Assembly (NCBI GenBank): GCA_036490175.1
Contig: DASXEJ010000018.1
Location: 1-40,526 of the forward strand
Source of the DNA: Pirellulales bacterium
GTDB lineage: Bacteria > Planctomycetota > Planctomycetia > Pirellulales > JACPPG01
DNA: 40,526 nucleotides
Direction: 5' to 3'
The first letter of the stretch is position 1. Every line of letters starts with the position of its first letter. Positions 29,902 to 33,485 of this stretch are shown piece by piece. Below the pieces are notes generated by a model. It saw only the letters and a list, made by a program, of their open reading frames with translations. It was not told where the DNA came from and did not search any database. A program made the translations under genes and the position numbers.

Positions 29902-30322
29902 AGGCAAGATGGAATCGCAAACTATGGCTTCACGTCCCCGACCTTCTCGCTACGACTGGGTACCGCCGTCGGCGCCCACCATGATCGAGCCCCAGCAATC
30001 TCGCGCACCAGAAGAAGACGCGTCACCAGGCACCATACGCCTTCCTGGGACATCCGGTGCCGACCTGGTCGAACAGTTGGGCCTGCTCGACGATGTGGTG
30101 TTCGAGGCCATTGCCGGCCGGGCCGGTGCGCTCGCCAAGCTGCAGTCTTTGTGGCCCCAGGTGAAGTCGGCCGTGGGACCGGCGCTCGTCGACGAATCGC
30201 GCGAGCAATACGTCAGGCACGCTCTGCGCGTGTGGCGCCGCTGCCTGGCCGGAGAAGAGCTTCACGATCCCGCGCACGCCCTGGCGGCGCTGGATGTCGT
30301 CTCGTTACTGTTCGACGAGTGA
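29894..30322 (+). CDS. small helical protein coupled to the coiled-coil gene
   Basis: 142 residues; its ATG lies inside the last codons of the coiled-coil gene. The N-terminal third is Pro/Ser-rich and disordered (RPSRYDWVPPSAPTMIEPQ...), and the rest is helical (DLVEQLGLLDDVVFEAIAG ... ESREQYVRHALRVWRRCLAGEELHDPAHALAALDVVSLLFDE). An alternative start is the ATG at 29909 behind AAAGG. The 3' end overlaps the 3' end of carA by 18 bases on the opposite strand, so any transcript must run into carA antisense or stop by other means. It probably works with the coiled-coil protein. The family is not recognised. Confidence 0.7.
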   Translation: MVKGKMESQTMASRPRPSRYDWVPPSAPTMIEPQQSRAPEEDASPGTIRLPGTSGADLVEQLGLLDDVVFEAIAGRAGALAKLQSLWPQVKSAVGPALVDESREQYVRHALRVWRRCLAGEELHDPAHALAALDVVSLLFDE

Positions 30323-31465
30323 CAGCATCTCGCGGAAACGCCGGAACAGATAATTGCTGTCGTGCGGCCCCGAGGACGCTTCCGGGTGGTACTGCACGCT
30401 GAAGGCTGGTAGGTCGCGATGCCGTACGCCTTCGATCGTTTGATCGTTGAGGTTGCGATGCGTCACTTCGAGCGATGACGGCAGGCTGGCTTCATCCACG
30501 GCGAACCCGTGGTTTTGGGCCGTAATTTCCACGCTGCCCGTCTCCAGGTTCAAGACCGGTTGATTGGCCCCGCGGTGCCCGAACTTCAGCTTGAACGTCT
30601 TGCTGCCGCAAGCCAGGCTCAGCAGCTGGTGTCCCAGGCAGATGCCAAAAATGGGGACCCGGCCCAGCAAACCCTGTATCGTGCGGATCGCATAATCCAA
30701 AGGCTCGGGATCGCCGGGACCGTTGGAAAGGAACACGCCGTCAGGCCGCTCGTCGAGCACCTGCTCGGCCGAAAACGTGCCTGGCAGCACCGTTACTCGG
30801 CAACCCTGATCGTACAAGTGCCGGGCGATGTTCCATTTCATGCCGTAGTCGATGGCTACCACGTGCGGCCGCGCGCTGTCGTCGATCGCTTTCTGATCGC
30901 GCCCCTGAATTTCCCACGGGCTGAGTCGCTCGCTCCATGTTTTGGCCTCGGTCGGCATGACTTCGCGCACGAAATCGCGTCCGACCAGCCCGCGGCTGTT
31001 TTTTGCCTTGGCCACCAGGCTGGCGTCGTCGAGATCCTCGGTCGACAGCACCCCCTTCATCGCACCACGGCTGCGAATCCGGCGGACCAGGGCCCGCGTA
31101 TCGATGCCGGCCAGCCCCACCACACCCGCTGCGGCCAGGTAATCGTGCAAGCAGCCATTCGCGCGAAAATTGCTCACGCGATGACTCAATTGGCGTACGA
31201 CGAAGCCCGACAGGTGCGGACGGCCGCTTTCGACATCCTCGGTATTGACGCCGTAGTTGCCAATCTCGGGATACGTCATCGTGACGATCTGCCCGCGATA
31301 GCTCGGGTCGGTGATGATTTCCTGATATCCGGTCATCGACGTGTTGAAGCAGACTTCTCCGTCGACCTCACCGGTCGCGCCGAACGAAGTGCCGCAAAAA
31401 ATCGTGCCGTCTTCCAGGGCCAGCTTGGCGATGGGTGTGTTGCTCATCGGCAAATCAAGGTTCAT
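30305..31465 (-). CDS. carA: carbamoyl-phosphate synthase small subunit
   Basis: Glutamine amidotransferase subunit of carbamoyl-phosphate synthase. It hydrolyses glutamine and passes ammonia to the large subunit (CarB), feeding arginine and pyrimidine synthesis. 386 residues. The N-terminal CarA-specific domain has FNTSMTGYQEIITDPSYRGQ and PEIGNYGVN. The C-terminal class I amidotransferase domain has VVAIDYGMKWNI, LSNGPGDPEPLD, the nucleophile motif FGICLGHQLL with the catalytic cysteine, and the paired His/Glu in FSVQYHPEASSGPHDS. Two starts are possible (31465 and Met7 at 31447), neither with a clear ribosome-binding site. No carB is adjacent. Its 3' end overlaps the neighbouring gene on the other strand by 18 bases. 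Confidence 0.95.
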   Translation of the reverse strand: MNLDLPMSNTPIAKLALEDGTIFCGTSFGATGEVDGEVCFNTSMTGYQEIITDPSYRGQIVTMTYPEIGNYGVNTEDVESGRPHLSGFVVRQLSHRVSNFRANGCLHDYLAAAGVVGLAGIDTRALVRRIRSRGAMKGVLSTEDLDDASLVAKAKNSRGLVGRDFVREVMPTEAKTWSERLSPWEIQGRDQKAIDDSARPHVVAIDYGMKWNIARHLYDQGCRVTVLPGTFSAEQVLDERPDGVFLSNGPGDPEPLDYAIRTIQGLLGRVPIFGICLGHQLLSLACGSKTFKLKFGHRGANQPVLNLETGSVEITAQNHGFAVDEASLPSSLEVTHRNLNDQTIEGVRHRDLPAFSVQYHPEASSGPHDSNYLFRRFREMLSLVEQ

Positions 31466-31691
31466 CGGGGAGTGAGGATTTTCGGTTTATAACGATCGCA
31501 ATCCGCTCAGCCGGCTTGCCCAGCCGTGCCATCTGCCGCGGTACACCCTGCGTACCGCCGAACTTCCGGTAACCAGCGTGCCGCGGTCCGTACCGCTAAA
31601 GTCCGTCGGTCTGCTGGCCCGATACGTTCCTAATGGCTGTGGGTCTCCGGACATGACCGGCGCCAGTCGGTCCTGAACGGACAGCCTTGAT

Positions 31692-31732
31692 GAGGGTCCT
31701 TGCCCCGGCGAGCAAGGGCCCTCTGTTTTTTT
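31692..31732 (+). terminator. strong plus-strand intrinsic terminator
   Basis: GAGGGTCCTTGC (31692-31703) pairs with GCAAGGGCCCTC (31712-31723) over 12 bp with one G-U pair and an eight-base loop, followed two bases later by seven T. No protein gene reads into it from the left on this strand, so it points to a non-coding transcript. Confidence 0.75.
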
Positions 31733-31774
31733 GCGCGCAGCGGCACGCGCGTTGGGGCCATCGGTCAAGGAAAG

Positions 31775-31780
31775 ATTATA
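31775..31780 (-). promoter_or_regulatory. candidate -10 box for carA
   Basis: Perfect TATAAT on the minus strand. The hexamer at -35 spacing is poor (TTTTCG). If used, it gives carA a long leader of about 320 bases. Confidence 0.3.
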
Positions 31781-31876
31781 GGCCGGGCAGGCGGGATCGA
31801 AAAGTCGCCGCACGATTGGGGCGCGCCAAGGCTCTTTTGCCAGGTGTCTCGTTTACAGGGGCCCGGCGTCTCTGCG

Positions 31877-33154
31877 TCAGCCCGACACCGGCGGGGCCGT
31901 CCGCTCGCGTGATTCGGTACGTGCCTCGGCGCCCAGGCAGCGGGCGATCTGGCGAACGGCTTGACGCAGCCGGCTTTCATTTTCGACTAGTGCCATCCGC
32001 AGGTAACCTTCGCCCGCCGGGCCGAAACCCGAGCCGGGGCTGGCGGCCACATCCCCTTCTTCCAGCAGTTTCATGGCAAAGGTGAGCGTGTCCATGCGCT
32101 GGCGCCACTGATCAGGGATCTTGGCCCACACGAACATGCCGGCGCGTGGCGGGGTGATGTCCCAGCCAATGCGGCGCAGCCCCTCAACCAGCACGTCGCG
32201 GCGATGCTGATAAATGTTGGCCTGCGACTCGACCGCGGCTTCGGTATGCCGCAGGGCGACGATGGCCGCCACTTGAATCGCCTGAAACATGCCGTAGTCG
32301 TAATAGGCCTTGATCGTGCCCAGCGCGCGAACCATCTCGGGATTGCCGGCGCAAAATCCGACGCGCCAGCCCGCCATGTTGTAGCCCTTGCTCATCGTGG
32401 TGAATTCGACCCCCACATCCACGGCCCCCGGCGCCGCCAGAAAGCTCGGCGGTTGATAGCCATCGAAGGCCACATCCACGTAGGCCGCGTCGCTAATCAC
32501 CATGAAGCCGTAACGCCGCGCCAGCTTGACGACCTCGACAAAGAATTCCGGCTCGACCGTCACGCTGGATGGATTGTGCGGATAGTTGACAATCAATAGC
32601 TTCGGCGACGGGTGCAAATGCTGGCACGTATAGGCCACGTTCGACAAAAACTTCTCGCAATCTGCCACCTCTAGCGTGATGACATTGCCCGAGGCCAATG
32701 TCACCGCGTGGGCGTGCGCCGGGAATGTCGGCGACGGCACGATGGCCGTGTCGCCCGGGCCCATCAGCGCCAGGCACATGTGGCTGAAGCCTTCTTTCGA
32801 GCCCAGGCAGACGATGATCTCGCTTTCGGGGTCGAGGCGGACGCCATACTTCTTCAGGTATTTGCTGGCCACTTCGCGGCGCAAATTAAGGATGCCCGTC
32901 GACTGGCTGTAGCCATGGCTCGTGGGATCGCGCGCAGCCTCGACCAGCTTTTCGATCACCAGGTCTTGGGGCGGGTCCGAGGGATTGCCCATGCCCAGGT
33001 CGATCACGTCGTCGCCGGCGCGGCGCTTCTTGTACAGCAGCGCATTGATCCGCCCGAACAAATAGGGCGGCAGCCGACTCATACGGCCGGCGAGTTGCAC
33101 TTTGAACGGCGGCAAGCCGTCGTCGGCCAGGTGCGAAGAAAAGTCATTACTCAT
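31877..33154 (-). CDS. alaC: alanine-type aminotransferase (AlaC family)
   Basis: Class I/II PLP-dependent aminotransferase of 425 residues, closest in pattern to E. coli AlaC (412 residues), which transfers the amino group between glutamate and pyruvate. Shared motifs, in order: [37 protein letters not shown] (cofactor phosphate site), [37 protein letters not shown] (ring-binding Asp/Tyr) and [15 protein letters not shown] with the PLP-binding lysine, plus the conserved C-terminal arginine context [10 protein letters not shown]-diaminopimelate aminotransferases are related, so the exact substrate is not certain. The ORF continues upstream to 33412, but the ATG at 33154 begins where the family begins. 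A terminator between this gene and the foldase makes it its own transcription unit. Confidence 0.9.
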
Positions 33155-33485
33155 CGTGGCGACCCCGAACGGGGGAGACTTGGTGCGGACGTACTGGTCC
33201 CTAGAAGATACCTTCGGCGAGGCACGTCGAAAACTGCCAGGGGGGGCCGTGGCGCCAGATTGCTCGGCATATCGGCACCAACCCCACCACCGTGCCAGAT
33301 CGCTTTCGCCCCCAAGAGCGGTGCATCCGGCCGACAAAAACGACGAACGGCAAGCACGTGGCTCAGAAAAACTCGCGGGCCGGCAGCACCGCGAGAGCGC
33401 GGGGACGCTCACCGCGCATTCCGGCCGCCACCCGCAGACTGCGCCGCGGAGAATGTGGCCGCCTTCTGGCGCGAATCCGCACGCG
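33155..33485. other. 331-base intergenic region upstream of alaC
   Basis: Contains the foldase terminator (33367-33395). The alaC promoter should lie between that and 33155, but I see no clear box pair. Nothing else is supported. Confidence 0.5.
33367..33395 (-). terminator. intrinsic terminator of the double-parvulin gene
   Basis: On the minus strand CTCGCGG pairs with CCGCGAG (plus-strand 33389-33395 with 33372-33378), a 7-bp GC-rich stem with a 10-base loop, followed by five U. It lies about 90 bases past the stop codon. Confidence 0.7.

Follow-up and report, generated by a model that had tools for sequence, protein, structure and literature searches.

What does the spacer between carA and the neighbouring class I/II aminotransferase gene encode, and on which strand? 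The window analysed, a 40,526-nucleotide stretch from a Pirellulales bacterium, was initially annotated with a non-coding RNA of 200-250 bases transcribed away from carA, or alternatively with a long structured carA leader formed from the same bases and starting at a minus-strand TATAAT at 31775. The 12-bp terminator stem and seven T reported for the plus strand were found at 31692-31732, and no plus-strand protein gene reading into this terminator was found, as had been stated. Its stem is the longest among three sites resembling terminators that were counted over 1.7 kb, where 1.7 sites with a stem of any kind are the chance mean. Folded as the plus strand, 31480-31732 exceeds shuffled sequences in stability (z -3.2); the minus-strand fold shows a smaller excess (z -1.65). 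The region had not been recognised as tmRNA, SRP or RNase P RNA, in agreement with database searches: the window had no match in Rfam 15 at gathering scores, 31300-31900 had none at E<=5, and ARAGORN found none, so that the covariance search proposed by the initial annotation matched no family.

Structure and strand of the element

A DNA search of 57 relatives recovered the element in 33 genomes, the aligned part covering only ~31593-31740; positions 31466-31590 are not conserved among relatives. The comparison of relatives, likewise proposed at the outset, revealed stems conserved with compensatory changes, and the length had been overestimated: the conserved part includes a promoter motif (Table 1), and the predicted RNA is ~98 nt. 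Its predicted start at 31632-31635 is derived from the position of the -10 element, and its end is placed within the T run. In hairpin 1, GGCUG is followed by the UGGGUC bulge, a UCCG...CGGA helix and CAGCC; a short linker then leads to hairpin 2, the terminator. The distance from GGCUG to the T run has a median of 93 nt. Minimum-free-energy folds of 131 unique copies contained the terminator in all 131 and helix 1 in 119. The marks of an intrinsically terminated sRNA, namely its own promoter, non-coding sequence and a stem-loop with a U tract, are all present in the sequence.

Table 1. Features of the small RNA locus and its neighbours in the window
Feature	Position	Strand	Basis or remark
carA (carbamoyl-phosphate synthase small chain)	30305..31465	-	Pfam PF00988, PF00117; divergent neighbour of small RNA
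Sigma-28 (FliA)-type promoter	31597..31624	+	-35 TAAAGT (31597-31602), -10 CCGATA (31619-31624); judged by motif
Small RNA gene, ~98 nt	31632..31732	+	Covariance model match 31632-31730; alignment A3 (99 copies)
Hairpin 1	31635..31686	+	GGCUG (31635-31639) pairs with CAGCC (31682-31686); upper-stem sequence variable
Conserved unpaired 5' bulge UGGGUC (core GGGUC)	31640..31645	+	Alignments
Hairpin 2, 12-pair intrinsic terminator stem	31692..31723	+	11 of 12 pairs changed on both sides (99 copies)
Conserved terminator loop CCCGGCGA (consensus NNCGGCGA, core GGCGA)	31704..31711	+	Loop of 8
Terminator T tract, seven T	31726..31732	+	Then frequently conserved GCGC (31733-31736)
Probable carA -10 box TATAAT	31775..31780	-	Transcript from there would be antisense to small RNA
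Class I/II aminotransferase	31877..33412	-	Pfam PF00155; converges on small RNA 3' end; coordinates from the frame's first possible start

Base pairing is retained throughout. In alignment A3 (99 copies), which was fitted to the model structure and whose counts therefore lean towards it, 98.6% of cells are paired, 256 cells are compensatory compared with a shuffled mean of 59.6, and 14 of 21 pairs vary on either side; structures slid along the same alignment are at most 54% paired. The independent MAFFT alignment A1 gave 99.3% paired cells, with 26 compensatory cells against 5.6. Where wobbles occur, the plus strand has G-U in 192 cases and A-C in one, which identifies the plus strand as the RNA strand. 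Together with the terminator and the conserved promoter, the compensated stems and the wobble asymmetry strongly support a non-coding RNA on the plus strand, transcribed away from carA as originally proposed. A small protein was considered and rejected, as the element length is free modulo 3 and no frame is open across the copies. A pseudoknot between the GGG of the bulge and a CCC of the loop was likewise unsupported, since copies with the loops UUCGGCGA and ACCGGCGA, read by eye, retain the same bulge. The sequence GCGC follows the T run at a distance of no more than 5 nt in 77 of 130 copies (~3% in shuffles, measured over a slightly narrower window); it is kept also in copies without carA.

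Distribution in the Planctomycetota

A covariance model built from 29 copies (R1) located the small RNA in 75 of 117 Pirellulales genomes, nearly always as one copy, and a broader model (R2) likewise did so in 75 of the 117. One genome (G102) carries two copies on different contigs (L277 and L278). A pattern scan of the contigs of named genomes returned at least 119 stretches, at least 105 of which were accepted as real by their T run; these copies include Blastopirellula marina DSM 3645 and many Phycisphaerae, Phycisphaerales, Sedimentisphaerales and Tepidisphaeraceae records. The scan pattern requires GGCTGTGGGTCT, CAGCC and CGGCGA, so that these letters are invariant in the pattern-found set by design. 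Among the BLAST and covariance-model matches, which were chosen without the pattern, GGCUG/CAGCC, GGGUC and GGCGA hardly vary, and in the few copies whose basal stem departs from this sequence the change is compensated: CGCUG/CAGCG (L272), AGCUG/CAGCU (L273) and GGCUU/AAGCC (L274). The small RNA is an RNA family at the level of the phylum Planctomycetota. Pattern matches outside the phylum (Pseudomonas, Arthrobacter, Brevundimonas, Enhygromyxa and others) lack a terminator T run after the motif and were dismissed as chance, and the weak covariance matches L064-L068 and L230 were discounted as ordinary terminators or unrelated sequence.

The family is not universal. Of 30 genomes (20 Pirellulales without a model match and ten from family f21), 29 yielded carA, and near those 29 carA genes R2 detected only a single copy, cut by the contig end (G052). 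In several Pirellulales families and in f21, which belongs to the same class, the RNA seems to have been lost or moved, and the absence of a copy beside carA in these groups indicates that members of the phylum can do without it. Phylum-wide tallies scored only 11-14 candidates per genome, which makes absences in them weak; presence at that level is taken from the pattern scan.

The promoter and sigma-28

A standard sigma-70 promoter scan found no promoter. Across the copies, the motif T[A/C]AAG followed by CGATA recurs upstream of the RNA. In the 136 copies that have CGAT[A/G] ahead of the RNA, a set in which some genomes are counted twice, the T[ACT]AAG-to-GATA spacing is 23 in 42 copies and 24 in 64; the other distances from 20 to 27 do not occur, and T[ACT]AAG is missing at the right distance in 30. 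The Bdellovibrio FliA consensus, TTAAG-N16-CCGATA, corresponds to the 23 spacing (PMC3627812). The motif points to a promoter of sigma-28 (FliA) type, presumably read by the corresponding sigma factor. In the window's genome the strict form TAAAGTN{14,18}CCGATA occurs a single time, at the small RNA; five further exact sigma-28 motifs in that genome did not exceed a reversed-pattern control.

Of 117 genomes, 110 have a FliA/WhiG match that exceeds the cut-off. The window's genome encodes FliA at G000:C142:5300-6094 (L269, 264 bits), in a row of flagellar genes that runs flhA (FHIPEP), an SRP54-type GTPase (flhF-like), a ParA-type ATPase and fliA. A second sigma factor of FliA/WhiG type is encoded elsewhere in this genome (G000:C237:4829-5497, within L270:4670-5587) and also exceeds the cut-off, with 193 bits. 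Among 30 related loci with a Flagellin_N match, eight have TAAAG-N17-CGATA 250-400 nt upstream of it, always on the sense strand (L193, L194, L196, L199, L202, L203, L204 and L208), and judging from this distance the flagellin genes there apparently have long leaders. The five genomes searched from the window's own genus yielded no Flagellin_N match, so that the link to motility is not direct there; this genus has retained a flagellar sigma factor without a recognised flagellin.

Function of the small RNA and comparison with known systems

Divergent carA adjoins the element at all 30 BLAST-found loci fetched and at the strong covariance-model loci, an arrangement that speaks for a structured carA leader (an attenuator or riboswitch) on the minus strand, with the plus-strand terminator as its by-product. 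A minus-strand TATAAT within 110 nt past the terminator is frequent (34 of 130 copies, compared with 1.2% in shuffles) and favours the same reading, as do two loci (L024 and L025) in which the -35 of the small RNA abuts the carA start, so that a carA leader must cross the element there. Against it stand the wobbles, the T tract and the conserved promoter, all of which belong to the plus strand. Furthermore, among the at least 105 pattern-found copies listed, 67 are divergent beside carA, and 26 are not beside carA despite at least 1.3 kb of flank and have differing neighbours; these 26 mark the RNA as a gene of its own rather than a carA leader, which we regard as a very improbable explanation of the element. 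The TATAAT named by the initial annotation is present (31780-31775), and the course that it implies for the carA transcript is probably correct, but the structure does not lie on the carA strand. As carA's likely TATAAT lies past the terminator, its leader very likely runs antisense through the small RNA gene, and the two transcripts would overlap across the whole RNA. The small RNA would then be fully complementary to the carA leader wherever the carA arrangement holds, and an added cis effect on carA is possible. This overlap is also what recommends a cis-acting antisense RNA, silencing mainly carA through leader pairing or transcription interference. A purely cis-antisense RNA could do without compensatory pairing and without a conserved bulge or loop; in Phycisphaerae all three are retained in copies without carA. 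The overlap cannot explain the conserved bulge and loop, and a mainly cis-acting role appears improbable.

A structural RNA that binds one protein, as a sponge or as a 6S-like binder of RNA polymerase, rather than pairing with mRNAs, would fit the near-invariance of the basal stem, bulge and loop across classes alongside an upper stem whose sequence is free. No known protein-binding motif was recognised in the element, and a 6S RNA, which the initial annotation had thought possible, is excluded by the model: RF00013 has no match here, even at E<=5. 6S RNA is a long hairpin of ~180 nt with a central bubble that mimics a promoter; the planctomycete RNA shares with it the character of a stable bacterial non-coding RNA, but has about half the usual length and consists of two short hairpins in ~98 nt rather than one long hairpin with a central bubble. 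6S-like matches occur in relatives on contigs other than that of the small RNA, at L266 (G013:C95:5993-6185, 57.0 bits), L267 (G005, 45.3 bits) and L268 (G003, 32.3 bits), of which only L266 exceeds the Rfam cut-off. We consider an RNA acting solely by binding a protein to be somewhat unlikely.

The conserved structure, strand, terminator, promoter motif and independence from carA are established, and the element is probably a freestanding gene for a trans-acting small RNA of ~98 nt that is driven by sigma-28 and has its own terminator, a reading in which we infer transcription, the sigma factor, the trans role and the timing. The sigma-28-type promoter would drive the small RNA and the intrinsic terminator would end the transcript, so that the RNA would be made when sigma-28 is active, in the motile or swarmer state. 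Pairing with mRNAs, or binding of a conserved protein, would take place through the GGGUC bulge and the GGCGA loop of the terminator, both of them conserved and unpaired. No target emerged: complements of the loop and bulge in flagellin leaders showed at most weak enrichment and no convincing signal; TCGCCG is present in 11 of 30 leaders, with 5.1 expected from a mononucleotide shuffle, uncorrected.

Small RNAs tied to sigma-28 are known from other bacteria. Escherichia coli has four sigma-28-controlled sRNAs, UhpU, MotR, FliX and FlgO (PMC10578931); the planctomycete RNA would resemble them as a short RNA linked to this sigma factor, but they derive from UTRs, whereas its gene is intergenic and has a promoter and terminator of its own. 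CjNC1 and CjNC4 of Campylobacter have been described as non-coding RNAs that depend on sigma-28 and are tied to flagellar regulation (PMC4626219). Likened to the planctomycete RNA by description, they belong to another phylum, and their predicted targets are sigma-54 genes. In Bdellovibrio, an organism with motile and growth phases, three sRNAs have FliA promoters, and the suggestion has been made that FliA regulates the motile phase globally (PMC3627812). These attack-phase sRNAs share the spacing of the FliA motif with the small RNA. The Bdellovibrio merRNA, which is 445 nt long, carries a c-di-GMP riboswitch and has no FliA promoter marked in the table of the same paper (PMC3627812), differs from the planctomycete RNA of ~98 nt, which matches no Rfam family.

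A literature search of open-licence papers brought up no account of an sRNA conserved among planctomycetes and hardly anything on small RNAs in Planctomycetota. The only listed candidate for identity is the Rhodopirellula-1 motif, a candidate structured RNA of Planctomycetes and Proteobacteria (Weinberg 2010, PMC2864571), which is listed there as probably cis-regulatory and without an Rfam accession. Compared with it by description only, the small RNA appears to form a new family within a known kind of RNA.

Planctomycetota have budding cells and a swarmer stage. A paper on tools for planctomycetes assumes that fliA is cell-cycle regulated, because a flagellum is formed only once the daughter cell has been released (PMC11958385), and by analogy with the sigma-28-linked RNAs above the small RNA may have a role in the swarmer state. 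Tentatively, it could be an ancient regulator of the Planctomycetota that is made by the flagellar sigma factor and, via GGGUC and GGCGA and a protein or mRNA partner, links motility in the swarmer stage with growth or metabolism in sessile, budding cells. RNA libraries would gain a new family from it, and in planctomycetes it could serve to mark the sigma-28 regulon. Mostly present as a single copy, retained in at least two classes and equipped with a recognisable promoter and two unpaired elements that hardly vary, the small RNA would offer a handle on the switch between motile and sessile life.
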